Shown one piece after another: positions 4,530 to 16,137 of a DNA stretch of 27,153 nt. This DNA comes from a virus. The translations under genes and the position numbers were made by a program. Location of the stretch: the IMG/VR virus record IMGVR_UViG_3300033148_001931, positions 1 to 27,153 of that record; one strand, given 5' to 3'. Within the stretch, counting starts at the first letter, position 1. Each line of letters opens with the position of its first letter. The notes below the pieces were generated by a model. The model did no database searches. It was not told the DNA's origin and saw nothing but the letters and a program-made list of their open reading frames with translations.

Positions 4530-5021
4530 ATGATGCACTATACGAAAATTACGAATGCTTCTTTCCTGCCGGACCTTCTGAGTGATGGGGATGTTTGGCA
4601 ATGTAATTTGGTCACAGCCAAATGGGTATGCGACCACGGTTACGGTTTTTATTCTGACTCCGCTGGAACCGCAGCAACTTCACCCTGGGATGGTGCCGGG
4701 GAAGATGTACCTGCACCACAATTTGAATCTGGTTTGGTTTCCGATCTGGACACTTCTGAAGTCGTTATCAACTTCGATGGGTCTCTTGCGGTAACTGATG
4801 AGACTGGTATGACTATAACGGCAGATGCCGCTCCCATTGTTGTCAGTAATGCTGCTGTTGCCGGTGATGCCCTGACTCTGACCCTGGCCGGACCAGTTGC
4901 CGCTGGGGAAGCTGTGTTATTCAGCTATGATGCTGATACAGGGAATCTGTTGGCTTCTGGTGAAGGTGATACCCCGGTTGCGGATCTTACCGACGCAGTT
5001 GTAACCAACACGGTGACTTAA
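4530..5021 (+). CDS. Ig-like/SwmB-type repeat protein, possible capsid decoration
   Basis: The 163 residues fall into two parts. Residues 1-70 are aromatic and Cys-containing and unrecognised. Residues about 75-163 resemble bacterial Ig-like (SwmB-type) beta-sandwich repeats, with alternating Val/Thr strands and a DALTLTLAGPVAAGEAVLFSYD segment-like pattern. Position right after the capsid gene suggests a head decoration or fibre protein, as Ig-like domains are common on phage heads (inference). There are two adjacent ATGs, 4530 and 4533; the GAGG at 4524-4527 gives better spacing to the second. It is transcribed past the preceding hairpin and is followed after 2 bases by the next gene. Confidence 0.75.
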   Translation: MMHYTKITNASFLPDLLSDGDVWQCNLVTAKWVCDHGYGFYSDSAGTAATSPWDGAGEDVPAPQFESGLVSDLDTSEVVINFDGSLAVTDETGMTITADAAPIVVSNAAVAGDALTLTLAGPVAAGEAVLFSYDADTGNLLASGEGDTPVADLTDAVVTNTVT

Positions 5022-5023
5022 TC

Positions 5024-5305
5024 ATGCCAATCCGAGTAAAAATTGTAGAAGAGGGATTTTGTCTGGGAACTACATTATTACCGCCCGGCACGATTGTTGA
5101 AGTTAATCAGCCAGTCAGGGACTACCTTGTGCGGGTTGGAAAGGCGGAAGATTTCAATGGTGAATATGATGCCCTTGGCACTTATTCCCGCAGGGACATG
5201 CAGGCCAAGCAAGCGCAAGCGCCAGAGGACGCCCCTCTGCCGGTAAAGCGTAAGCGCAGAACAAAGATTGAGATGGAAAGAGCCCGGGCGAATGGTGCAG
5301 CGTAA
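5024..5305 (+). CDS. Small head-region protein with basic tail (unknown function)
   Basis: The protein has 93 residues. The N-terminal half (1-50) has a compact beta pattern: RVKIVEEGFCLGTTLLPPGT, then YLVRVGKAEDF, a form often seen in small proteins encoded near phage capsid genes. The C-terminal half is charged, with a KRKRRTK cluster at about 74-80 and several Ala/Gln. The stop TAA overlaps the portal ATG by one base (TAATG), indicating coupled translation. The basic tail could contact DNA or the acidic portal tail, but no function is established. Confidence 0.75.
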   Translation: MPIRVKIVEEGFCLGTTLLPPGTIVEVNQPVRDYLVRVGKAEDFNGEYDALGTYSRRDMQAKQAQAPEDAPLPVKRKRRTKIEMERARANGAA

Positions 5306-6690
5306 TGGAAGAGACCAAGGTAGTTGGTGAATCCGAGGAAGTTGTAGAACCCACTAAACCAATTGGTGAGTTTAAGAACTGGCTTAGTTGGCCTGGGACA
5401 GAGGGCTACGATGCCCAGTGGTTCCAGAAAGGAGGTACGCCGCCGGACCCCCACACAGCTAAAGCCCATGCTGCCGTTTTCGCCTGCACAACTATCCTTG
5501 CTCAAGAGGTGGCCAAGCTCAGGATTGAGCACTTTCGCTTAAAGGATGATAATTCCAGAACCCCGTTGCGGGGAAGTTCGGTCTCCCGGTTGATGCGGAA
5601 GCCGAACCACTATCAGACTCGATCCGATTTCTTTTTGATGATGGTAGGACAGTTGGTATTGTCCGGCAATGCTTATGTGTTTGCGGAACGGAATGATTCA
5701 GGCCGCATTATAAAACTCCACCCGCGACCCTCTTCTGAGTGTATGCCCTGGGTGTCCCCAGATACCGGGGATATTTTTTATTCGCTGATTAAGACTGATC
5801 TTGATATGGCGATGATTCAAAATATGCCAGAGAAGTATCTGGTTCCACAGCGGGACGTTCTCCATATAAAGCTGGACACCCCCAGGCACCCGCTCATTGG
5901 GGAAAGCCTGCTTGCCGGCCTATCGTATGCAGTAGCCCAAGGGGTGAATATCCAACGGGATTCGACTGCATTTTTCGGAAATATGTCCCGTCCATCCGGT
6001 ATTCTTTCTGCCCCGAATGAAGTTAGCGAAGTGACTTTGAAACGGCTTAAAGCTGCGTTCAGCGATGGGTCTGCCGGGCAGAATGCTGGTAAAACGGCGG
6101 TACTCGACCAGGGGTTCACTTGGCACCCGATGACCCTGAGTGCTGCCGATGCCCAGTTGATTGAAACCTACAAGATGACCGTGGCTGATATTGCCATGGT
6201 GTTCCGGGTTCCGCTTTATATGTTGGGTGATCTGACAAAGGCCACCTACACCAATGTTGAGCAAATGCAGAAGGGTTTTCAGGCCGGTATTCTGGGATTC
6301 CTTACCGAACACATCGAAGCCTCCCTTGATGATTTTTTCGGGATGACAACTTCTGGGTCTGAATATATGGAATTTGATTTAGAACGGGGTGTTATCCGGT
6401 CAGAATTCACCACTCGAATGGAAGGATATGCTAAGGCACTATCGGCTGGCATCACGGTAAACGAGAACCGAGCCAAGGAGAACCTGCCTCCAGTTGAAGG
6501 TGGAAATGAAGTATATCTCCAGCGTCAAAATTGGCCGCTTGGCCTGCTCGGCATGGACGCGATTAAAGAGGTTGAGGATGCAACCGGAGGGTCAGATCCG
6601 GATGATGATTCTTCGGATGATTCAGATGATAAAGATTTTGAAAATGCGCTCCGGCGCGAGTTCACATTGATCCAAGGCGGACGAGCATGA
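5305..6690 (+). CDS. Phage portal protein, HK97 family
   Basis: This forms the dodecameric ring at the capsid vertex through which DNA enters and leaves. The 461-residue length is normal. Family features include the early helix AAVFACTTILAQEVAKL (residues 56-72), the GNAYVFAERND block, the HIKLDTPRHPLIGESLLAG region and the stem/crown part around VADIAMVFRVPLYMLGD. The C-terminus carries a run of Asp and Ser (about 428-447), giving a strongly acidic tail before a final basic helix. Its position is odd: in most HK97-like genomes the portal gene sits between the large terminase and the protease, whereas here it follows the capsid gene and two small genes. Start by TAATG overlap; stop by ATGA overlap with the next gene. 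Confidence 0.95.
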   Translation: MEETKVVGESEEVVEPTKPIGEFKNWLSWPGTEGYDAQWFQKGGTPPDPHTAKAHAAVFACTTILAQEVAKLRIEHFRLKDDNSRTPLRGSSVSRLMRKPNHYQTRSDFFLMMVGQLVLSGNAYVFAERNDSGRIIKLHPRPSSECMPWVSPDTGDIFYSLIKTDLDMAMIQNMPEKYLVPQRDVLHIKLDTPRHPLIGESLLAGLSYAVAQGVNIQRDSTAFFGNMSRPSGILSAPNEVSEVTLKRLKAAFSDGSAGQNAGKTAVLDQGFTWHPMTLSAADAQLIETYKMTVADIAMVFRVPLYMLGDLTKATYTNVEQMQKGFQAGILGFLTEHIEASLDDFFGMTTSGSEYMEFDLERGVIRSEFTTRMEGYAKALSAGITVNENRAKENLPPVEGGNEVYLQRQNWPLGLLGMDAIKEVEDATGGSDPDDDSSDDSDDKDFENALRREFTLIQGGRA

Positions 6691-7919
6691 AAGCAGAAAC
6701 GATAGCAAAATTTCTACATGAGGTAATGAAGCCTCTTCAGGACGATGTAAAAGATCTGCAAGCAATCTTTGATGATGTTGTGGATCATGTTTCCAAGATT
6801 GACAGTTCTGCGGCCCTAAGCCAACAAGAGCTTAAAACCCTCATCGTGGACCGGGTGCATGATACTCGGTTGGCCTTGATGAAAGAGCGCGATTCTTTCC
6901 GGGGAGATCCTGGTCCGCAAGGCGAAGTTGGTACACAGGGAAAACGGGGCGATATTGGCCAACGCGGAGAAAAGGGGGACATGGGCGGCCAGGGCGGCCA
7001 GGGCGAACGCGGAACCACTGGTAAGACTGGTGAACCTGGGCAGCCGGGTGAACCCGGCCAACTGGGACAACCTGGACCACAGGGAAAAGAGGGCTCACCG
7101 GGAGACCGTGGCGACCTCGGCCCCCAAGGCGACCAGGGTGAACCCGGCCAACTGGGACAACCTGGACCACAGGGAAAAGAGGGCTCACCGGGAGACCGTG
7201 GCGACCTCGGCCCCCAAGGTGGTCAGGGTGAGCGTGGACATCCCGGCAAAGACGGGAGGAATGGAGATCGTGGATACCGTGGCGAACAAGGTGAACGTGG
7301 CGACATTGGCCAAGAAGGAAAAGTTGGGAAACAAGGGGACCAGGGAGAACGTGGCCTCCTCGCTGCAATTTCCGAATGGACTGAAAGAAAACATGCGCCC
7401 GGCGAAGTTGTCACAATTTCCGGAGGAACATGGCAAGCCCGTAGAACCACTACGAAAGAGCCGAACTTTAATTCAAACGATTGGGAGCTATTGGCCAATG
7501 GAATTGGGTCCGTGGAGTCCAAGGATTATTGCTTGGCACTCACAGTTTCGTCCGGCGCCGTGGTTAAAACGTCCTCCTTACGCGGCGAGAAGGGAGAACC
7601 TGGGGAAAGTGTAACCTTCCACCCAAAATACGAGGAGACCCGGCTTTATCGGTCCTCCCTCGACGAAGTTAAGGAGTCCGGCTGTACATGGCGGGCACTC
7701 AAGGATGGCATTCTACATAAGCCCGGTACTACTAAAGGCAAAGAGCAATGGAGGAATACTACGCACGTTGGTCCTCCAGGCAAAGATGGAAAGGATGCTG
7801 ATGAGGAAATTGTAGCGGAAAAGGTGTTTCAATTGATTGCTCGGGATGCAAAGGCGACCCTGGACTTGACCATAAAGCAAGTGGATGATTATTTTAGCAG
7901 GCTGAGTCTCAATGTCTGA
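6687..7919 (+). CDS. Collagen-like phage fibre protein with chitin-binding-like module
   Basis: This is probably a trimeric virion fibre. Residues 1-70 look like a helical coiled-coil trimerisation or attachment region. Residues 73-223 contain 51 uninterrupted Gly-X-Y triplets, rich in KGE/KGD-type charged triplets that stabilise bacterial and phage collagens lacking hydroxyproline. Residues 228-270 (ISEW...GEVVTISGGTWQA...NDWELL) resemble the small CBM5/12 (chitin-binding) fold. A weaker similar segment spans about 311-356, with short extra collagen patches at 300-308 and 362-370, and the end (372-408) is helical. The DNA includes an exact 84-base duplication (7046-7129 and 7136-7219). The start overlaps the portal stop (ATGA). 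Binding to surface glycans is inference. Confidence 0.85.
   Translation: MKAETIAKFLHEVMKPLQDDVKDLQAIFDDVVDHVSKIDSSAALSQQELKTLIVDRVHDTRLALMKERDSFRGDPGPQGEVGTQGKRGDIGQRGEKGDMGGQGGQGERGTTGKTGEPGQPGEPGQLGQPGPQGKEGSPGDRGDLGPQGDQGEPGQLGQPGPQGKEGSPGDRGDLGPQGGQGERGHPGKDGRNGDRGYRGEQGERGDIGQEGKVGKQGDQGERGLLAAISEWTERKHAPGEVVTISGGTWQARRTTTKEPNFNSNDWELLANGIGSVESKDYCLALTVSSGAVVKTSSLRGEKGEPGESVTFHPKYEETRLYRSSLDEVKESGCTWRALKDGILHKPGTTKGKEQWRNTTHVGPPGKDGKDADEEIVAEKVFQLIARDAKATLDLTIKQVDDYFSRLSLNV
7046..7219 (+). repeat. Exact 84-base direct repeat, 90-base period, in the collagen-like gene
   Basis: Copies 7046-7129 and 7136-7219 match base for base as read by eye, and six bases separate them. The period of 90 bases equals 30 residues or ten Gly-X-Y triplets, so gain or loss keeps both the reading frame and the collagen phase. 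Identity at synonymous positions indicates a recent duplication or ongoing gene conversion. Confidence 0.92.
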
Positions 7920-8556
7920 TTTCACAATCTATGCACAACGTGGAATCACTTGGATAGAGGCCAACCTTCAATCTATTGTAAAGTCCGCTATGCTCCAAAG
8001 CCAAAAAGTTCTATGGCAAGGGATGTTTGTGTACGGGGATCACATTTCCAAGGGGTCCGCTGTTGTTTATACCTCCAGGGTATTTTTGGCGGTACGGGAT
8101 AATAAAGACTCCGTTCCAAAGAATGATTCCCCGGATTGGTTTATGCTGGTGGATCTCCGGACCATGCAATTTCCAGATGGTGATTTCCAGTCGATTGGAA
8201 TTTCACTTCCGCCGGTGGATAAGTCGAGTTCCACCCGGCTGATTTCATCCCAGGTCGCCCGGTATATGCTGACCACGGTGTACAACAAAGCATTGAATGA
8301 ACCGATCGCAGGGACTCATCAATGGCGTAGTCGATTTACTACCGAGGCCAAGTATAGCCCTGGGGATATAGTAGCCTTTCGTAACTCGGTGTACATTGCT
8401 ACTACCGGTGACGGTGTTCCAGGCGAAGGCAAAGGATGGGAGCCTCTTCATGTAACCGGAGCCGTTGGGCATGGTAAGGATATGAATTACTTGTTCGATG
8501 GGTCCACAGGTCAACTGTTGGTCACTGAGGACGGGGAGCCCCTGGTGTACGAATGA
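7912..8556 (+). CDS. Virion protein with two chitin-binding-like modules
   Basis: The protein has 214 residues. Two segments, about 34-81 (VLWQG...GDHISKGSAVVYTSRVFLA...DWFML) and about 137-182 (HQWRS...YSPGDIVAFRNSVYIA...GWEPL), share the W - Y/G - GD-V - Y-A - W pattern of CBM5/12-like modules, also present in the collagen-like protein just upstream. The C-terminus ends in a short beta-type motif (QLLVTEDGEPLVYE). The start overlaps the upstream stop by 8 bases. It is likely to be part of the same surface fibre assembly, as a chaperone, adaptor or receptor-binding partner (inference). I cannot name a known orthologue. Confidence 0.7.
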   Translation: MSDFTIYAQRGITWIEANLQSIVKSAMLQSQKVLWQGMFVYGDHISKGSAVVYTSRVFLAVRDNKDSVPKNDSPDWFMLVDLRTMQFPDGDFQSIGISLPPVDKSSSTRLISSQVARYMLTTVYNKALNEPIAGTHQWRSRFTTEAKYSPGDIVAFRNSVYIATTGDGVPGEGKGWEPLHVTGAVGHGKDMNYLFDGSTGQLLVTEDGEPLVYE

Positions 8557-9173
8557 GAGAAATTAACGAATACGCGAAGAATACAGGATTTGGCGCAGGG
8601 GCCAATCGGTTTAAGATTGAAGAGGACGGTACAGCCGTGCGCGTCGGAGATGCGACAACCTGGGATGATTTGGTTGGTTCGTTGACCGGTAAACGATTGT
8701 CCTCCACCAGTGGAAAGGTGGCCTATGATTACACGGAGAATGCTATTCTCTTTCTGCCTGGAGGCTCTATTTCCACTGAGGCGGATATTGTTAATTTCAA
8801 TTTCCAATACCCCCATGCTGCAATCGTCGATGGGATAATGGCATTGCACATTCATTGGGAACAGCCCGATGCAACAGAAAGGGAATTTACGCTCAAATAC
8901 CGAGTGCAAAAGAATAGCGCGGCGAAAAATACAACATGGACGACTGTGGTAATTGCGACTAGTGAAGCAAACAACGTGTTTCCCTATGTCTCTGGGGTTT
9001 TGAATCAAATCACTCCGTTGGCCGATGTTGATATGACGGACGCTGGAATAAGTGCCACTGTTCAATTCCAGTTGGCCAGGACAGATGGTGAAAGTGGTGA
9101 TATTAGAGCAACTTTTGTAGATGCTCACATAGAACGAGACACCGACGGGAGTCGTTCTGAGTATGTAAAATGA
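8553..9173 (+). CDS. Jelly-roll-like virion surface protein
   Basis: The 206 residues begin with a short helical part. A beta-rich domain follows, starting TTWDDLVGSL (35-44), with a central block ALHIHWEQPDATEREFTLKYR. That 'h-IHWEQP' block is reminiscent of a widespread family of phage proteins with WDDL and HIHW/PHVHW motifs that lie among head or tail-fibre genes. The function in those families is not established; a trimeric beta-sandwich on the virion surface is plausible. ATGA overlap with the upstream gene implies co-translation with the module protein. The C-terminus is charged. Confidence 0.6.
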   Translation: MREINEYAKNTGFGAGANRFKIEEDGTAVRVGDATTWDDLVGSLTGKRLSSTSGKVAYDYTENAILFLPGGSISTEADIVNFNFQYPHAAIVDGIMALHIHWEQPDATEREFTLKYRVQKNSAAKNTTWTTVVIATSEANNVFPYVSGVLNQITPLADVDMTDAGISATVQFQLARTDGESGDIRATFVDAHIERDTDGSRSEYVK

Positions 9174-9211
9174 CCGTCTGGTTTATTTTTTGAAATTGTA
9201 AGGAGTATGAA

Positions 9212-9598
9212 ATGGCTTCCGGTAAAACTGATACCCATGAAAATGCAGTAATTAATCACTTTTGCAGAGGCACGGGTGAAACAACGAAGAGCGCGTATAT
9301 CGCTCTTTTCAGTACCGCCCCTGGCGAAGCTGGCGGCGGCGTCGAGCTGAGTGGTAACGGGTATGCCCGTATCGCTATTGGCCTGAATGCCCCATCCGAC
9401 GGGGTTGCTTTGAATGGCGGCGAAGTTAAATTCACGGCTGCCGGTGGTGCTTGGTCTGCAATCGACGGTCACGCAGTAATGGATGAATCCAGTGCCGGGA
9501 ACATGCAGTATTACGAAGATTCTGTTGGTGGTCCGACATTGGGCGATGGCGACAGTTATCAATTTGATGCCGGTGATATATCTGTGACTGAAACATAA
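9212..9598 (+). CDS. Small phage fibre/appendage protein
   Basis: The 128-residue protein has the pattern 'Y-ALFSTAPGEAGGGVELSG-GYARIAIG' (about residues 30-59), which recurs in small phage proteins annotated as tail-fibre-like or Gp80-like and forms a compact beta fold. It lies within a run of surface protein genes. It has a good ribosome site, AGGAG (9201-9205), six bases before the ATG. The stop codon overlaps the next ATG (TAATG). The exact virion location is unknown. Confidence 0.65.
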   Translation: MASGKTDTHENAVINHFCRGTGETTKSAYIALFSTAPGEAGGGVELSGNGYARIAIGLNAPSDGVALNGGEVKFTAAGGAWSAIDGHAVMDESSAGNMQYYEDSVGGPTLGDGDSYQFDAGDISVTET

Positions 9599-9996
9599 TG
9601 GGACGGGTATATAAAGCCCGGGCCAATATGAGTCGTCCGAAACCACCGAAGTACAAGATCTATTATGCAGACGGGTCTACCTACTGCGATGAAGACGGTA
9701 CACCGGACGCGGCCCCTAAAGCCGGGGTTCAGATGGTTGTGGTGGAAGACTCCGAGGTTGGCCGGAAGATTGAGCAGGGCGGCCCCTACTGGGTTTACGA
9801 TGGGTTCAGGTGGATCAACGTAAACGATGCGGGGTTGTACCTTTATATGTTTTCGCCAGGGTGGAAGATTGTCTTGTATGGCCAATCGGTTCCTGATAAC
9901 AGTTATCAGAACTTTCTGAGTGCTGCAACAAGTGATCCCTATTTGCCACCTAAAACCGGCGTTACTGACAGTGAGAGGAACAAGTATCGCGTCTGA
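9598..9996 (+). CDS. Conserved-looking phage protein of unknown function
   Basis: The protein has 132 residues. After a basic lead, the motif KIYYADGSTYCDEDG (about 19-33) and a later stretch VVEDSEVGRKIEQGGPYWVYDGFRWINVNDAGLYLYMF-like pattern give many aromatic residues. Short proteins beginning 'Y-DGSTY...' with 'VQ-VV' and 'YW' motifs are common among phage structural genes, with no known activity. The start at 9598 is by TAATG overlap; a second in-frame ATG at 9628 could also be used but has no better ribosome site. Confidence 0.65.
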   Translation: MGRVYKARANMSRPKPPKYKIYYADGSTYCDEDGTPDAAPKAGVQMVVVEDSEVGRKIEQGGPYWVYDGFRWINVNDAGLYLYMFSPGWKIVLYGQSVPDNSYQNFLSAATSDPYLPPKTGVTDSERNKYRV

Positions 9997-10026
9997 TGTG
10001 CCGGTAAATTATTAGAGGAACATAAA

Positions 10027-10272
10027 ATGAAAATGTATTGGGCGTTTCTTATGATTATTTTCCTGGGTCTTTCTGGCCTTGCTGCCGGTGAAGGCGGGAA
10101 GAAAGGAAATCCAAATCTCATCATTGGTGAGGATGGCTGTGTCTATGCACTACCTACCAGCACCAAGGCGTGTGAGGAGGTTCCAGCGCCTCCTCAGTCG
10201 GGGATTGAAGTGTATGTTTGTAGCGACGTTATTGCTCTCTGCCCTGAAGAAGTGGAAGAGCCAAAAAGTTAA
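10027..10272 (+). CDS. Secreted small protein with four cysteines
   Basis: The 81-residue product begins with a signal peptide: MKMYW, a hydrophobic core of about 12 residues, and a likely cleavage after LAA (position 20). The mature part has four Cys (38, 49, 65, 72), which could form two disulfides in the periplasm, and an acidic end. There is no lipobox Cys at the cleavage site. A clear ribosome site AGAGGA (10014-10019) lies 7 bases before the ATG. Secretion of a small disulfide protein is unusual in the middle of virion genes. Options include superinfection exclusion, a lysis accessory or host envelope modification. I do not recognise it. Confidence 0.65.
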   Translation: MKMYWAFLMIIFLGLSGLAAGEGGKKGNPNLIIGEDGCVYALPTSTKACEEVPAPPQSGIEVYVCSDVIALCPEEVEEPKS

Positions 10273-10275
10273 ACC

Positions 10276-12126
10276 ATGGCCGCTGAAACCCTAAGCCCCG
10301 ATGTCCTGCTTGTCCAGACTAATCTCTCTGGTACGGTTTCAGATATTCAGGATGATCCGGATAGCCCGGATAGTAATTGGCTGAATGCACCTGATGGGGA
10401 CGCGAATACTTATCTGGAAGTAGACTTCCCTGATGCCGCTGGTTCATTAACCACGGGTGCTGGTCTGCAAGAATTTCGGGTTCAAGTAGGTGCAACTTTC
10501 GGCACAAGAAATCCAGACAGGCTAAGATTCTATCTGTATGAAGGGGCCACACTAAGAGCAACGCTATACGACGAAACCGGCAACGTCATTGCCACTAGTT
10601 CAGGTGGGCAGGTCATATCTCTGACTTGGGATGCCAGCCTTCTTTCTTCCCAAGCCGCCGATACAGATGTTCGGTTGATAATGGAATGTGATGCTGACAC
10701 GCATCCACCGGCACAAGAAACAACTATTGAAGTCGGCGCCGTTGAATGGAATGTGGATTACACCGGGGCAACCACTTACGACGGTACTGCAACCTTTGCG
10801 GCATCCGGAACCATGGCCGCCGTTGGGGATGCCATTGTCAGGTATGAGGGAACTGCGGCCTTTGCAGGCGTAGGTTCGTTCGCCGGTCTCGGTGACGCAA
10901 AGGTAAGGTATGAAAGCACGGCGGCCTTTGTCGGCGCCAGTTCTTTGTCGGCCACCGGGGGTTATTCTCATGCCGGGGCGGCCTCCTTCTCTGCTGCCGG
11001 GTTCTTATCTGCAACAGGTCAACAGGTCAAAATTTACGATGGTGTTGGTGCGTTTGTCGGCGGTGCGTCCTTCGGCGCTCTCCCGGCGGTAGATAGGGCA
11101 GGCTCAGGCGCATTTGCAGGCTCAGGCGCATTTGCAGGCGCACCGGTTACCAATCGGTCAGGGGTTGCCGCTTTTGCCGGTCAGGGGCTTTATTCTGCTG
11201 CCGGAAGCAAGATCAACAAGGCCGGCAGCTTATTTGCCGGGTCTGGTTCACTTCTTGCATCTGGTGAATATCTTAGCTATTTCCCTGGGAGTGCTTCCTT
11301 CTCAGGCACCGGGGCATTTACCGGAGCTAATTCCAGTGTTACCAGGGCGGCCTCTGCTGCCTTTGTGGGAGATGGATCTTTTGCTGCGGTTGGTGAATTA
11401 TCCGGGGTTGCCCCTGGTAATGCCTTATTCTCAGGTGTTGGGGCATTTACCGGAGTTAATCCCAGTGTTACCCGGGCGGCCTCTGCTGCCTTTGTGGGAG
11501 ATGGATCTTTTGCTGCGGTTGGAGATCTGGTAGGGGTTAACCCTGGTAATGCCTTATTCTCAGGTGTTGGGGCATTTACCGGAGCTAATTCCAGTGTTAC
11601 CAGGGCGGCCTTTGCGGCCTTTACCGGTGCCGGGACATTATCACTGGCTGGCCAAGCTGTTCGTGCTTCCACGGCGGAGTTTAACGGGTCTTCTGTTTTC
11701 TCTGCTGTCGGGTCAACGTCTTCGGATACAGCCGGCGTCGCTTCTTTCCTGGCCACTTCCACCCTTCAAACAACTGCGAAAGTTGTACGCAGAGCTGGGG
11801 CAAGTTTCGGCGGCGGATCGTCGGTAGGATTATCTGGAGCCGCTACTTATTTTAGACAGGCCAACTTTGTGGCCGCCGGGTCTTTAACCGGGCTTGGTAC
11901 TGCAAAGTACAACTATCCCGCAATTGCAGCATTCGCCGGTCAGGCTTCTTTCGCAGGACAGTGGAGAGTTATCCCGATTGCGGGTAATGGATTCCTGTGT
12001 GTCAGCGTGTCTGTTTCTCCTATTCTGAATGGTGGCCTTTCCACATATCCCGTTTTAGATTCTAGTGTTATTATAGAGCCGGCACTTGATGCCGATTTAG
12101 AGGTTACACAATGTCCTTCGTCTTAG
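10276..12126 (+). CDS. Large repeat-built fibre protein (about 20 repeats of ~20 aa)
   Basis: The protein has 616 residues. Residues 1-165 form a beta-sandwich-like domain (RLRFYLYEGATLRATLYDETGN and following strands), similar in texture to sugar-binding jelly rolls. From about 168 to 585 the chain is made of repeats with the pattern 'aaFaGsGsFaavG', 19-22 residues each, low in charge and rich in Ala, Gly, Ser and Phe. A regular beta-solenoid or shaft is likely. The last 30 residues include two Cys. At the DNA level there are near-identical 129-base double repeats (11311-11611) and an exact 18-base tandem (11101-11136). The start has only a weak ribosome site, and the end overlaps the next gene by 16 bases. 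A tail or head fibre role is inferred from the neighbours. Confidence 0.75.
   Translation: MAAETLSPDVLLVQTNLSGTVSDIQDDPDSPDSNWLNAPDGDANTYLEVDFPDAAGSLTTGAGLQEFRVQVGATFGTRNPDRLRFYLYEGATLRATLYDETGNVIATSSGGQVISLTWDASLLSSQAADTDVRLIMECDADTHPPAQETTIEVGAVEWNVDYTGATTYDGTATFAASGTMAAVGDAIVRYEGTAAFAGVGSFAGLGDAKVRYESTAAFVGASSLSATGGYSHAGAASFSAAGFLSATGQQVKIYDGVGAFVGGASFGALPAVDRAGSGAFAGSGAFAGAPVTNRSGVAAFAGQGLYSAAGSKINKAGSLFAGSGSLLASGEYLSYFPGSASFSGTGAFTGANSSVTRAASAAFVGDGSFAAVGELSGVAPGNALFSGVGAFTGVNPSVTRAASAAFVGDGSFAAVGDLVGVNPGNALFSGVGAFTGANSSVTRAAFAAFTGAGTLSLAGQAVRASTAEFNGSSVFSAVGSTSSDTAGVASFLATSTLQTTAKVVRRAGASFGGGSSVGLSGAATYFRQANFVAAGSLTGLGTAKYNYPAIAAFAGQASFAGQWRVIPIAGNGFLCVSVSVSPILNGGLSTYPVLDSSVIIEPALDADLEVTQCPSS
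11101..11136 (+). repeat. Exact tandem 18-base repeat x2 in the fibre gene
   Basis: GGCTCAGGCGCATTTGCA occurs twice head to tail (11101-11118 and 11119-11136), encoding a six-residue Gly-Ser-Gly-Ala-Phe-Ala unit twice. It is a slippage-prone site inside the repeat protein and preserves frame. Confidence 0.9.
11311..11611 (+). repeat. 129-base higher-order repeat in the fibre gene
   Basis: Units start at 11311, 11440 and 11569. The first two full units differ at about 12 of 129 positions by my count. The third is partial and matches the first exactly for 43 bases (11569-11611 against 11311-11353), better than it matches the second. Each 43-residue unit holds two of the short protein repeats, so recent growth of the fibre occurred by duplication of repeat pairs. 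Confidence 0.88.
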
Positions 12127-12437
12127 CCTTACATCCTGATAACTCGCTATCTTTCCAGGCGATCATAACAAATCCCCTGGTCGATCCAATCTATGTAAAC
12201 GATGCGACTGTTACCGTGACGGTGTATGACAGTGCGGACGCTGAAGTGGTTGGGGAAACTTGGCCTTTGACCCTGGCTTATGTGACCGATAGTGATGGGG
12301 AATATGCTAAAACGGTTAACCCAATTTCAGGGATAACCGCAGGAGAAATTTACAAGGTCGTATTGTTGGTCCTCGGGGCTGATTCACTTGCTGGAAGATG
12401 GGAAGGTGTTGTTGCCGCGACTGTTCGCGGAGGATAA
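12111..12437 (+). CDS. Small beta-sandwich virion protein
   Basis: The 108-residue protein has alternating hydrophobic strands (DATVTVTVYDSADAEVVG at 32-49; TAGEIYKVVLLVLG at 76-89) and a DSDGEYAKTV turn, resembling small Ig-like domains found in phage baseplate and fibre accessory proteins. Its start overlaps the repeat fibre gene by 16 bases, so it probably joins that fibre as a base or cap (inference). The GGAGG at its 3' end doubles as the ribosome site for the next gene. No family is named with confidence. Confidence 0.65.
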   Translation: MSFVLALHPDNSLSFQAIITNPLVDPIYVNDATVTVTVYDSADAEVVGETWPLTLAYVTDSDGEYAKTVNPISGITAGEIYKVVLLVLGADSLAGRWEGVVAATVRGG

Positions 12438-12439
12438 AG

Positions 12440-12544
12440 ATGGTTGAATGGATCGTGTTGGGCTTGTGTTTGCTTGCCGTGATAATAGTTGCTTGCCTTG
12501 CAGGGTGTTCTGAAAATAACAGAGGTGGGATGTATCATGATTAA
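12440..12544 (+). CDS. Tiny membrane or lipoprotein-like peptide (34 aa)
   Basis: An ATG at 12440 follows a strong ribosome site GGAGG (12429-12433) with six-base spacing, so this short gene is credible. The product is a hydrophobic segment (residues 5-22) ending in LAGC, which fits a lipobox with Cys23, then SENNRGG and a short tail. The N-terminal region is MVEW with no positive charge, which is unusual for a secreted lipoprotein, so a single-pass membrane peptide is an alternative. It overlaps the next lipoprotein gene by 8 bases. Together with the following gene it occupies the place where spanin pairs often sit, but the resemblance stops there. Confidence 0.6.
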   Translation: MVEWIVLGLCLLAVIIVACLAGCSENNRGGMYHD

Positions 12545-12836
12545 ATTTTGGATTGTTGCTGTATTTGCGTTGGTCCTCAGTGCGTGCGAGTCAATTTCAC
12601 CGTATGGTGAGGCTCATACCGGGGGCGCAGTTTATCATTATGAAAATACTGTGAGCCCCGACGGGGTTAAAAGTTGTACTGTCAATGGAACAACTGCGAA
12701 AGAAGTTCCTGGGGTTAAGGTAAAGATAACAAGCGATTGTGAGCTGGAGGTTGAGGCCGGGGGGTCTTCTCCAGTTGGTGATGCCTTCGAGGCGATAAAC
12801 GGACTTGTTGAGCGGTTGCCGGGGGTGATGCCATGA
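12537..12836 (+). CDS. Phage lipoprotein of the lysis region
   Basis: The 99-residue protein has a signal sequence MIKFWIVAVFALVL followed by the lipobox LSAC, Cys17, with Glu at +2, so outer-membrane sorting is expected in a Gram-negative host. The mature part contains a beta-type stretch with two further Cys that could pair (SCTVNGTTAKEVPGVKVKI and SDCELEVEA, residues about 44-71), and a short amphipathic end. It is not the proline-rich type of classical Rz1. The start at 12537 is preferred over an upstream TTG (12489) because the signal peptide then begins correctly and GAGGTGGG sits just upstream. The stop overlaps the next ATG (ATGA). Confidence 0.7.
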   Translation: MIKFWIVAVFALVLSACESISPYGEAHTGGAVYHYENTVSPDGVKSCTVNGTTAKEVPGVKVKITSDCELEVEAGGSSPVGDAFEAINGLVERLPGVMP

Positions 12837-13279
12837 AAATACTCGCATACAAAGGAAGGTCGATCTTTTCCAAATTGATTAAAATCCAGACTCGTTCTGA
12901 TTACAGTCATGTTGCTTTTCTGCTGGATGATGGCACGGTGATTGAGGCGTGGGCGCTGTTGGGCGTCCGGCATGTTGCCTCGCCCACGGAAGCGCATAAA
13001 TCCGGTACAGTCATTGACACTTTTGAAATCGAAAGTGAATATGACTCACTGGCTACAATGGACTTCCTGAAATCCCAGCTTGGTAAAAAATATGACTACC
13101 GGGGGATTGTTCGTTTCTTGACTCGTAGGAAGTCGCCAGCAGATGATCGGTGGTTCTGTTCAGAACTTGTCATGGAGGCGCTTAGACGCGGCGGATTGGA
13201 TTTACAGGAGCGCTTACCCTCGTCTTATGCTACGCCTCGGGATGTAGTTATTTCGCCGCATTTGCGCGGACCCGTGTAA
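12833..13279 (+). CDS. YiiX/YebB-type permuted papain-fold (NlpC/P60-like) hydrolase
   Basis: The protein has 148 residues. The order of motifs is that of circularly permuted NlpC/P60 enzymes: His first (H26 in YSHVAFLL), an acidic residue (E38 in VIEAWA), and the nucleophile Cys late (C109 in WFCSELV). Family members are thiol hydrolases or acyl-transferases of cell-envelope or lipid substrates. There is no signal peptide, so it would act in the cytoplasm, through the holin, or in the virion. Lying between lipoproteins and the holin/endolysin genes, it may be a second lysis enzyme (inference). The ATGA overlap couples it to the lipoprotein gene. Confidence 0.8.
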   Translation: MKILAYKGRSIFSKLIKIQTRSDYSHVAFLLDDGTVIEAWALLGVRHVASPTEAHKSGTVIDTFEIESEYDSLATMDFLKSQLGKKYDYRGIVRFLTRRKSPADDRWFCSELVMEALRRGGLDLQERLPSSYATPRDVVISPHLRGPV

Positions 13280-13292
13280 GTAGAGGGGAGTA

Positions 13293-13820
13293 ATGATTTT
13301 CGATCATAATCTAGGTGAAGTTGGCTTTTTGTTACTAGGCAAAAAGAACATGTTGTTGTTTGGAGTGGGGATGGTTGCTGAAAAAATACGGACGAATCCG
13401 GACTGGCGGATGTGGGCTACAATTTTAGGGATGGTGATTGGTTTATTACTTCCCAGCGGTGCTTTTTTTGCCTGGGCGTATGATAATTTGGATGAAAGAA
13501 GTGTCATGCGAATCACTCCACTCCAAAATCAAATAAAGGCAATGCAACATTTTCATGACAGCATGGATGGGTTGGTTGATTTGAAGTTAGAACCAGTCAA
13601 AGTGCAAATAGCACACATGCTCAAATTTCAAGATGTTGGGAAAAGACACACTAAGGATGATGCGAGGGAGGATAAGGTAGAAATAATGCGTTATATTGAT
13701 GAAAATCGAGGATCTATAAAAACATCAATAGTGGAGTGTAAAGATGACAATGCCGCAGATCATCTTGAAATAAACTCCCGGCTCAGGTGGCTAGAAAGAG
13801 GGGTGTTGGGAAATGAGTAA
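13293..13820 (+). CDS. Single-pass membrane protein, holin-like candidate
   Basis: The protein has 175 residues. Its one clear membrane segment runs from about residue 41 to 64 (ATILGMVIGLLLPSGAFFAWA). An amphipathic hydrophobic stretch comes before it (10-29), and a long, charged, helical domain follows (70-175). It lies immediately before the endolysin gene and overlaps it by 8 bases, the position of holins and of membrane partners of endolysins. Its long soluble tail is larger than in most holins, so it could also be an inner-membrane spanin-like or antiholin protein. The ribosome site GAGGGGAG (13283-13290) is strong. Confidence 0.65.
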   Translation: MIFDHNLGEVGFLLLGKKNMLLFGVGMVAEKIRTNPDWRMWATILGMVIGLLLPSGAFFAWAYDNLDERSVMRITPLQNQIKAMQHFHDSMDGLVDLKLEPVKVQIAHMLKFQDVGKRHTKDDAREDKVEIMRYIDENRGSIKTSIVECKDDNAADHLEINSRLRWLERGVLGNE

Positions 13821-14241
13821 TTTCTACTTAGGCCGCAAGTCGTTATCTAATCTGATTGGGGTTTACCCAGAACTAGGGTTTATTGCAACGGAAGCAATAA
13901 AAATTACCAGCCAGGACTTCACTATTTTTGATGGGGTACGGACGGACGAAGAGCAGAGAGAAATGGTCAACTCTGGTGCTAGTATAACCATGGACAGTTA
14001 CCACCTTTATGGTCTTGCGATTGATTTGGTCCCATGGATAAACGGTGCAGCAAGATGGGAGGAAGAACCTTGCAAAAAAGTCATTGTCGCAATCAAGGAA
14101 GTCATACGGGCGCACGGGTTAGAGGATATTGAAAACGGATATGATATGTGGGGCTGGGATTTGCCCCATTGGCAGAAGTCCGGGTATAAAGAGAAGTATG
14201 ATTTCCGGAGGCTCGACACATTTAATTTACTGGAGGCTTGA
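13813..14241 (+). CDS. Endolysin, M15 (VanY-like, T5-type) peptidase
   Basis: The 142-residue zinc peptidase probably cuts the L-Ala-D-Glu or D-Ala cross-link of peptidoglycan at lysis. Zinc ligands are visible as H64 and D71 in SYHLYGLAIDLVPW and H119 in WDLPHW, with D116 as the likely catalytic acid. The GVRTDEEQ motif (41-48) matches the 'G-RS/T--Q' start of T5 endolysin-type enzymes. There is no signal sequence, so export depends on a holin, presumably the membrane protein just upstream. It is followed directly (no gap) by the connector gene, so lysis and head-tail genes share a transcript. Confidence 0.92.
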   Translation: MSNFYLGRKSLSNLIGVYPELGFIATEAIKITSQDFTIFDGVRTDEEQREMVNSGASITMDSYHLYGLAIDLVPWINGAARWEEEPCKKVIVAIKEVIRAHGLEDIENGYDMWGWDLPHWQKSGYKEKYDFRRLDTFNLLEA

Positions 14242-14835
14242 ATGGGCTACCCAACATTGACCGATATAAAGTCGTACCTCGGGATTACCACCCCGGCAGA
14301 CGATGCGTATTTGACCCTGGTCCTGGCTGCCGTTATTCAGGCGGTTGAGGAATACTGCCAACGCGCCTTCCCAGAAGCCGAGGTTGTCCAGACACTTGTG
14401 CATGTGGATGATACTGACACTTTCCTACTGAAGCACTACCCGGTGTCAGCCGTGAGCTTGGTAGTGGCCAATGGAACTACCTTGGGTGAGTCCGATTACA
14501 CCTTGGACGGGGATCTCGGATTATTGTATTTAACCATTAGCCGAAGTGGGGACTTTGAGTTCACTTATACTGGTGGGTATGATCCAATACCGCCGATGGT
14601 GGATTATGTTATAAAGGAAGCCGTGAAGACCGTGTATAGCAACCGGGATACTGATTCTGAACTTGGCCCGATTAAATCGGAACGGGTCGATGGGGCTACT
14701 ACGTTGGCCTATTTCGCACCTGAAGATTATGTATCTTCTGGAGGGGGCAGTTCATTAACCCCAAAAATCCTTTCCCCTTATGCGAATCTCTTGGACACGT
14801 TCAGATCAGAACGAGCGTTTGGAGTATTTGGATAA
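14242..14835 (+). CDS. Head-tail connector (adaptor, gp6-like)
   Basis: The 197-residue protein has the HK97 gp6/SPP1 gp15-like all-helical adaptor pattern: a start of the type 'TLTDIKSYLGI', with DAYLTLVLAAVIQAVEEYCQR (residues 21-41), then a beta insertion (about 45-110), and a C-terminal helix DYVIKEAVKTVYSNRD. Such adaptors dock under the portal ring. Here the gene is 7.5 kb away from the portal gene rather than next to it or next to the capsid gene. Its start immediately follows the endolysin stop, and its stop overlaps the next ATG (TAATG). Confidence 0.88.
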   Translation: MGYPTLTDIKSYLGITTPADDAYLTLVLAAVIQAVEEYCQRAFPEAEVVQTLVHVDDTDTFLLKHYPVSAVSLVVANGTTLGESDYTLDGDLGLLYLTISRSGDFEFTYTGGYDPIPPMVDYVIKEAVKTVYSNRDTDSELGPIKSERVDGATTLAYFAPEDYVSSGGGSSLTPKILSPYANLLDTFRSERAFGVFG

Positions 14836-15008: not shown

Positions 15009-15338
15009 ATGGCTCAAGGTAGAATCACTTTCGCCCGTTCGTTCGCCCGGCACGGTATGCCTGCGACACTGATCCGGATCGGACCCCCCGCGCTTGAGAT
15101 CCCCATCACAGTTCTCCGCCGGTATGCGGAAGAGTCTCCTGTGGCACATGAAATAAGTCAACAGGATACCCGGTTTACTTTGGAATATGCAGACTTGGTG
15201 TCCAAAGGTTTTCCTGTACCACCGAAGAAAGGAGACCGTATTTTGAAGACTGGTGATTATTTCACCATCTCTTTGGTACGTCCCCTGGAAACCCATGGTG
15301 AGCTTGTCGGCTATGAAGTCAGGACGACAGGGGGATAA
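15009..15338 (+). CDS. Head-closure (stopper)-like protein
   Basis: The 109-residue protein has a small beta-barrel pattern: FARHGMPATLIRIG near the start, then PPKKGDRILKTGDYFTISLVR and a final ELVGYEVRTTGG. This 'GD-I---G-Y-V...GE-VGY-V' ending is typical of head-completion/stopper proteins (gp16/gpFII-like), which close the portal channel and offer the tail attachment surface. Position between the adaptor and the gp10-like neck protein supports it. Confidence 0.75.
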   Translation: MAQGRITFARSFARHGMPATLIRIGPPALEIPITVLRRYAEESPVAHEISQQDTRFTLEYADLVSKGFPVPPKKGDRILKTGDYFTISLVRPLETHGELVGYEVRTTGG

Positions 15339-15339
15339 T

Positions 15340-16137
15340 ATGGCAACCGGATCACTTATCAAGGTAAGCGAAGACTGGAGGATTAACCCCGGAGATGGAA
15401 AATTCCTGCGGGTTATAACTGCAAACTTGGCTATGGACACTTTGAAAAGGGATCAGATGACAAACCGGTTCCCAAAGTTATCCACTGACTATCTGAAGGT
15501 GGTGGACAATAAATTGGGCGCCAGTGAGTTCGGGGTCCTGTCTGGGGGAACTATCGTTTACCAGAATAATTCCTCCACCATGGATGAAATGTTGGCCTGG
15601 ATAGCGGAACAATTGGTTATACGGTCGCCATATCGGAATAAGCGTCCACAGGATGTTAAGGGCTTCCGGTCATCTCATTACGAAGATGCCCATTTGTACA
15701 TGGTAGATGGCCGAGCGGTAATGTCTATCGACAACACCACGAATATTGTTAGCTTCCGGCGGAATTTTAACACCGTGAAGCATACTCAGGGGTCCAAGCA
15801 TGTGTTTGTTAACACTATGCCCTATGCTCGTCGTATAGAGCACGGTGGAGGCTTGACCCATACCAGCCGAGCACGGAGAATAAAACGAGGGAAGAACAAA
15901 GGGAACATGGTTATATCAAAGACTCGTTCCCTCGCATGGTCCATGCAAGCCCCTAGCGGGGTGTACCGGGCGATCGAACGGGCGGCCAAAGCCAGGTTTG
16001 GAGAAAGCGTGAGAATAAAATACACTCGGCTCCAATTGTCACTCCCCTATAAATTTGGGGCAAGGTTAGGGATGACTTCCCAGTTTTATCCAGCCCTGGT
16101 CATTCGGCCTAAGAGCGTAACGAAGGGGGTACTATGA
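15340..16137 (+). CDS. Neck/tail-completion protein, HK97 gp10-like
   Basis: The protein has 265 residues from the ATG at 15340. An ATG upstream at 15253 is in frame but inside the stopper gene, and the GGGGG at 15330-15334 gives 15340 a proper ribosome site. The diagnostic motif is FVNTMPYARRIEHGGG (about 155-170), corresponding to the 'N--PYA--IE-G' signature of the gp10/tail-completion family. A basic block RRIKRGKNKG follows. The protein is longer than HK97 gp10, with an extended N-terminal domain. It should sit between the stopper and the tail terminator at the neck. The stop overlaps the next ATG. Confidence 0.88.
   Translation: MATGSLIKVSEDWRINPGDGKFLRVITANLAMDTLKRDQMTNRFPKLSTDYLKVVDNKLGASEFGVLSGGTIVYQNNSSTMDEMLAWIAEQLVIRSPYRNKRPQDVKGFRSSHYEDAHLYMVDGRAVMSIDNTTNIVSFRRNFNTVKHTQGSKHVFVNTMPYARRIEHGGGLTHTSRARRIKRGKNKGNMVISKTRSLAWSMQAPSGVYRAIERAAKARFGESVRIKYTRLQLSLPYKFGARLGMTSQFYPALVIRPKSVTKGVL

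Follow-up and report, generated by a model that had tools for sequence, protein, structure and literature searches.

The genes between the portal and the head-tail connector of the window, as the whole 27,153-bp IMG/VR virus record IMGVR_UViG_3300033148_001931 is called here, probably encode accessory neck fibres together with a lysis cassette in the same late operon. A Gp80-family bead gene and a large gene for a rope-like repeat protein carry this reading, along with a collagen-type fibre gene directly after the portal. End repeats are absent from the window, which by its gene content is a fragment of an HK97-type long-tailed phage. Its left part consists of TerS, TerL, the protease, the major capsid protein, two small genes and the portal, followed by the studied region. 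Then come the gp6-like connector, head-tail joining protein, Neck1, tail terminator and major tail protein, and in the distal part the chaperones, tape measure, tip proteins, NlpC/P60 and a J-like protein. The portal gene lies downstream of the capsid gene, the same order as in relatives.

The studied region (6687-14241) measures 7.55 kb and contains 12 genes, tightly packed on one strand and named here by their start positions. The portal stop codon shares 4 nt with the ATG of 6687, and the connector gene begins immediately 3' of the stop codon of the endolysin gene 13813. A preliminary description of this DNA had read the stretch as an adhesion and lysis island that splits a normally contiguous block. 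Its observation and its interpretation each hold in part: the 7.5-kb separation of portal (phrog_12) and connector (phrog_442) is real and the genes it named exist, while the extent of the insertion and the proposed functions require revision.

The bead gene and the rope-like repeat gene

The product of gene 9212 can be assigned with confidence to the Gp80 family on its sequence, scoring 89 bits against PF23140, for which the cutoff is 27. The family takes its name from the bead protein of fiber I of Ralstonia podophage GP4, an appendage reportedly described by Zheng et al. in 2023 as five fibres with gp80 dimers and a rope. PDB entry 8JOU contains ten Gp80 chains and three chains of a 93-residue protein matched by JC1_55, whose family (PF23148) is named GP4 fiber-tail adaptor Gp77 in Pfam. 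A Gp80 homologue also occurs in phage phiM5, where the record notes its detection in the particle proteome.

The next large gene, 10276, encodes the repeat fibre that the preliminary description had recognized. By motif positions its 19 units are spaced strictly 20, 21 or 22 residues apart, and the autocorrelation reaches z 7.6 at lag 20 and z 9.4 at lag 43. Inside the gene lies a 129-bp tandem array (11311-11622). In a near-identical strain (L100/L268, with 99-100% identity over shared genes), the product is 43 residues shorter; 129 bp, exactly two units, are missing between 16-bp identical ends within this array.

The pairing of bead and repeat gene recurs in other phages. The gene after gp80 is repetitive in JC1, POI1126, phiM5, CRP-4 and C72C1, with a lag-20 or lag-22 signal that is clear in three of the five (JC1_54, POI1126_16 and C72C1_8) and weak in phiM5 and CRP-4. 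Among IMG/VR Gp80 loci, a period of 20-22 residues is present one or two genes after gp80 in 46 of 78, compared with 0/75 for the two genes preceding gp80 and 20/566 for other proteins of the same loci. The distant relative L051 carries the pair at the same genomic site as the window: between the collagen fibre gene behind the portal and the connector lie glycosyltransferases with a methyltransferase, then Gp80, two small genes and the repeat protein. Its repeat protein has 1139 residues and a 20-residue period; a PDB search returned no solved relative for it.

Gp80 genes of this portal group lie beside the connector or in a post-portal island (window, L051, L211, L071 and L226). In L211 the portal is followed by a collagen/carbohydrate-binding module (CBM) fibre, a collagen gene, Gp80 and a large protein, while in L071 and L226 the connector immediately adjoins a Gp80-like gene. 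These arrangements and that of L051 repeatedly associate Gp80 with the group's neck genes. In the 79 IMG/VR Gp80 loci, which are podophage-type, the gene preceding gp80 is an adaptor in 61.

The portal-adjacent collagen fibre

Gene 6687 encodes a short helical N-terminus, a collagen region of ~150 residues and one or more C-terminal CBM5/12-like modules. The collagen-like character claimed for it is certain, and the chitin-binding-like reading names the right kind of module. A module profile built from relatives only matches 6687 and 7912 and no other window protein, with E-values that refer to a 32-protein set. PF02839 (CBM5/12) picks up this module in the fibre proteins of the closest relative, L012 (3.6e-7), and of Salmonella phage FSL SP-016 (7.5e-5), but does not report the modules of 6687 and 7912 themselves. 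The 7912 product is a probable companion adhesin of the 6687 fibre. Within the collagen region, positions 7046-7231 hold a 90-bp tandem duplication, a natural site of length variation.

The position of 6687 directly after the portal is shared by L012 and most relatives. Stenotrophomonas SOVA965 and Rhizobium RHph_X2_26 are examples of cultured phages that carry such a collagen/CBM fibre gene behind the portal. Post-portal genes of at least 120 codons in the fetched loci, counted without de-duplication, encode a CBM-like module in 89/116 cases, a collagen run in 89/116 and both in 70/116. In E. coli phage vB_EcoS-783R2 (L006 8706-11204) and in L029 (6201-8786), the portal and a coiled-coil/repeat/CBM fibre form one reading frame. 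As the portal of vB_EcoS-783R2 carries this architecture fused to its C-terminus, the separate fibre of the other members would attach at the portal or neck; the fusion is the best evidence that argues for such attachment.

The portal-connector junction in relatives

IMG/VR, GTDB genomes and phage records supplied ~170 relatives of the portal. In IMG/VR, single-protein scans with the portal and TerL yielded no close relatives, and alignment queries recovered them. The gap was measured in 77 distinct loci with both portal and connector located; gene calls were mechanical, and a few are artefacts. The median gap is 835 bp. One or two genes intervene in 56 loci, the usual lone gene being a collagen/CBM fibre. 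Portal and connector are adjacent in 12, so the supposed contiguity of this block is wrong for the group. A short gap without a called gene occurs in two, a portal-fibre fusion in one and a different gene order in one (Paracoccus Shpa). The remaining five (L051, L259, L237, L264 and L233) contain islands of 5.2-8.7 kb.

This survey rules out the entire 7.5 kb as an insertion. Because most relatives keep a fibre gene after the portal, and in L012 the connector directly follows that gene, 6687 is ancestral and the actual insert is the ~6.3 kb at 7912-14241. The insertion proposed earlier therefore stands for 7912-14241 and fails for 6687, for which relatives display the ancestral order; they do not for the remaining genes. 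Islands at the same point in five of the 77 loci make this a recurrent insertion site. GC content and GC content at third codon positions do not differ between insert and flanks, so composition offers no hint of a recent transfer.

The other islands carry glycosyltransferases or further fibres, and no lysis gene was recognized in them. Glycosyltransferase-like clusters are located between portal fibre and connector in L233 (11891-16534), L259 (7427-14521), L051 (6492-9339) and L237 (7228-8693), with FkbM-type methyltransferases within those of L233, L259 and L051. Such clusters suggest that the collagen fibre or some other part of the virion is glycosylated. By eye, gp2 of EBPR siphovirus 3 (L004 701-1534), close upstream of the portal, resembles a glycosyltransferase-like gene of the L233 island.

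Lysis genes and remaining genes

The features of the region and its two boundaries are listed in Table 1.

Table 1 Genes of the portal-connector region with their flanking genes (window coordinates; HMM, hidden Markov model; TM, transmembrane).
Feature	Position	Strand	Evidence
Portal protein, left boundary	5305..6690	+	phrog_12 8e-89; 44% identity to L012 portal
Portal-adjacent trimeric-type fibre	6687..7919	+	PF01391 1.9e-23; module HMM 1.4e-8
Second protein, two CBM5/12-like modules	7912..8556	+	module HMM 6.9e-8; phrog_5073 tail fiber 1e-3
Mobile beta-rich adhesin-like protein	8553..9173	+	conserved H-I/V-H-W-E-Q motif; relatives in L101, L102
Gp80-family bead protein	9212..9598	+	PF23140 3.3e-25; phrog_240 2e-22; PDB 8jou phmmer 5e-4
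Small protein, no assigned function	9598..9996	+	no family or phage-record match
Small protein, signal-like hydrophobic N-terminus, 4 Cys	10027..10272	+	hydropathy
Rope-like fibre	10276..12126	+	~160-residue N-terminal domain, 19 repeat units, C-terminal tail
108-residue protein overlapping rope stop codon	12111..12437	+	candidate fibre-to-neck adaptor by gene order only
Lipoprotein, lipobox LVLSAC, outer-spanin-like candidate	12489..12836	+	sequence, hydropathy
YiiX/YaeF-like permuted papain amidase (C92)	12833..13279	+	phrog_1128 5e-29
Single-TM protein, long charged C-terminus; holin- or inner-spanin-like candidate	13293..13820	+	TM residues 42-60
M15-type peptidoglycan endopeptidase (endolysin)	13813..14241	+	phrog_465 3e-30; PF13539 1e-4
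gp6-like head-tail connector, right boundary	14242..14835	+	phrog_442 4e-26; PF05135 4e-9

The lysis cassette, earlier counted as five genes, comprises four: 12489, 12833, 13293 and 13813. Together they plausibly form a lysis set on their sequences, with recognizable enzyme families in two, 12833 and 13813. The true start of 12489 is probably a later ATG; its product matches Exc2 entry-exclusion lipoproteins below threshold (0.053). No holin or spanin family match was obtained for 12489, nor any family match for 13293 in the profile libraries. The amidase 12833 matches PF05708 (8e-4) and NF008552 (7e-10), both under the curated Pfam and NCBIfam cutoffs, and retains the likely catalytic His (SHVAF) and Cys (WFCSEL). 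A homologue in Alteromonas phage PT11-V22 is annotated with a tail-fibre chaperone, and the amidase may belong to the fibres rather than to lysis. None of the four genes has a counterpart in the other islands examined. In phiM5 too, lysis genes adjoin fibre genes.

Relatives of 8553 occur in two phages with unrelated surroundings: L101 (7947-8582, 63% identical), where the gene follows tail-fibre genes, and L102 (4701-5330, 57%), where a single small gene separates it from the portal and a holin-like gene lies nearby. This distribution points to a small family that moves horizontally between unrelated phages, and recently. Against the PDB, 8553 gives a weak hit (0.01) in the lectin-like part of a clostridial neurotoxin, which is taken as chance resemblance. 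The jelly-roll label finds no family match in 8553 or in the N-terminal domain of 10276. The 9598 product has no match in Pfam, PHROG, NCBIfam or phage records. The protein described as secreted and Cys-containing is the 10027 product, which is probably exported given its N-terminus. The position of 12111 resembles that of the Gp77 gene in JC1 and L104; its identification as the Gp77 collar is unsupported by sequence (hhalign probability against Gp77, 4%). When 12111 and 14242 were scanned against viral contigs, the near-identical strain was the sole match.

Outside the studied region, the Neck1-like open reading frame (15253-16137) has a start that runs 86 nt into the preceding gene, and its true start is probably internal. 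In the capsid-portal interval, positions 4530-5021 encode a possible head decoration protein, which carries an Ig-like SWM repeat (PF13753).

Proposed assembly and alternative explanations

In the proposed arrangement, 6687 with 7912 would form a collagen-stalked fibre tipped by CBM5/12-like modules and anchored at or near the portal, its ancestral neighbour. The inserted block 8553-12437 would make a GP4 fiber I-type bead-and-rope fibre, in which Gp80 subunits clamp along the regularly spaced units of the 10276 rope. The non-repeat ends of the rope would hold the neck anchor or a terminal adhesin, with 8553 a candidate tip and 12111 a candidate adaptor. Such a fibre may bind surface glycans or other surface structures reversibly and so increase adsorption. 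The primary receptor binder is more likely the J-like tip protein (22171 onward), and the fibre need not have that role. The genes at 12489-14241 would be a conventional lysis set, mechanistically independent of the fibres. The neck with glycan-binding fibres suggested in the preliminary description gains support from comparison, through the conserved portal-adjacent collagen/CBM fibre and the Gp80 bead with its repeat protein; the decorated head it offered as an alternative gains none.

More tentatively, the rope may act as a molecular ruler with one Gp80 per unit of 20-22 residues, and the portal-fibre site as a plug-in socket for neck appendages and glycan-modifying enzymes. By eye, JC1 has ~10-11 rope units against the 10 Gp80 chains of 8JOU. 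If the ruler holds, unit number sets fibre length, giving ~19 subunits (9-10 dimers) in the window, 17 in the sister strain and ~40 in L051, and the two-unit deletion in the sister strain removes one dimer bead.

Several points weigh against the neck-fibre assignment. Control lags of 13-15 and 25-27 also score in 25 of the 78 Gp80 loci, and many of the 79 loci belong to related marine podophages, so that the counts are not independent events. The 10276 product has no sequence relation to any solved chain in a PDB search, and GP4's own rope is not identifiable in the PDB set. No window protein matches a Gp77 profile made from JC1 and POI1126, and the region is consequently not classed as a complete GP4 fiber I system; a Gp77 candidate was seen in 1/79 Gp80 loci, so its absence is common. 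Finally, in Sporosarcina Lietuvens and mycobacteriophage Hocus the Gp80 gene lies in a tail-tip or baseplate region, so membership of the family does not always imply a place in the neck. The Lietuvens and Hocus genes, near baseplate or minor tail genes, and the 8553 relative behind tail-fibre genes in L101 would fit a different placement, with the island proteins as virion adhesins, 9212 and 10276 at the tail tip, shaft or head, and their position a matter of late-operon packing. This is unlikely, given the Gp80 genes beside or near the connector in five portal-group members and directly after the adaptor gene in most podophage-type loci, and the finding of GP4 Gp80 in a tail-vertex fibre structure.

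It is less likely still that 10276 stands next to 9212 by chance and encodes an unrelated protein, either an ordinary tail fibre of the trimeric type or a beta-solenoid. It lacks sequence homology to other post-gp80 genes, and Ala/Gly/Ser-rich repeats evolve easily; however, its unit spacing is strict, and genes downstream of gp80 repeatedly show this period in podophages and also in L051, with none in the upstream genes. Comparably improbable is a role of 10027 and 12489 as host-directed cargo that alters the cell surface, for example to exclude other phages. The signal-like N-terminus, the lipobox and the Exc2 match would agree with it, but that match is far below cutoff, the genes sit within a late structural and lysis operon, and a lipoprotein beside an endolysin is commonly a spanin. 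A functional coupling of adhesion and lysis, the idea of the preliminary description, has adjacency in its favour and nothing beyond gene order; with no lysis gene recognized in the other islands and the phiM5 lysis genes likewise near fibre genes, it is very improbable. Accessory neck fibres beside a lysis cassette remain the best explanation.

Comparison with known systems

With GP4 fiber I the region shares a Gp80 homologue followed by a large gene with a period of 20-22 residues, as in the GP4 relative JC1. Unlike GP4, the window belongs to a long-tailed HK97-type phage in which the Gp77 adaptor was not detected; unlike in JC1, two extra small genes separate bead and rope, and the rope is ~2x as long. 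On family-level evidence, GP4-type fibres would thereby extend from podophages to HK97-type long-tailed phages, and the anonymous repeat genes that follow gp80 in the genomes of many phages would be linked to a probable rope role. The portal-connector junction of this group combines a conserved collagen/CBM fibre gene with recurrent island gain, and a quantitative prediction follows, namely that bead number follows repeat number.

At the level of function, a parallel among siphophages is the neck passage structure (collar-whisker) of lactococcal phage TP901-1 and the 936 group, neck fibres with carbohydrate-binding modules, a proposed portal attachment and reported non-essentiality (PMC6669499). 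That structure is not collagen-based and has a different gene position. The gp80-gp82 proteins of Anabaena phage A-1(L) form a flexible bead-chain neck fibre with a distal carbohydrate-binding module (PMC10966104). A-1(L), however, is a myophage with trimeric beads of another protein, encoded far from the neck genes, and its gp80 is not GP4 Gp80. In Alishewanella siphophage LSH1, gp34-gp36 form an accessory set of three genes close to the lysis module, with proposed roles as adhesin, fibril and adaptor and including a Gp80-like dimeric protein of weak match (HHpred 0.0075) (PMC13243795). Unlike in the window, no repeat rope is described there, and the module lies downstream of the lysis genes, not at the portal. 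EPclA/B of E. coli prophages are trimeric phage fibres of collagen and coiled coil (PMC3368898); they differ from the window fibre in their terminal domains PfN/PfC, and that paper is silent on portal, neck and carbohydrate-binding modules. In conclusion, the region is a new combination of known parts that would work like known neck fibres, rather than a new kind of machine.

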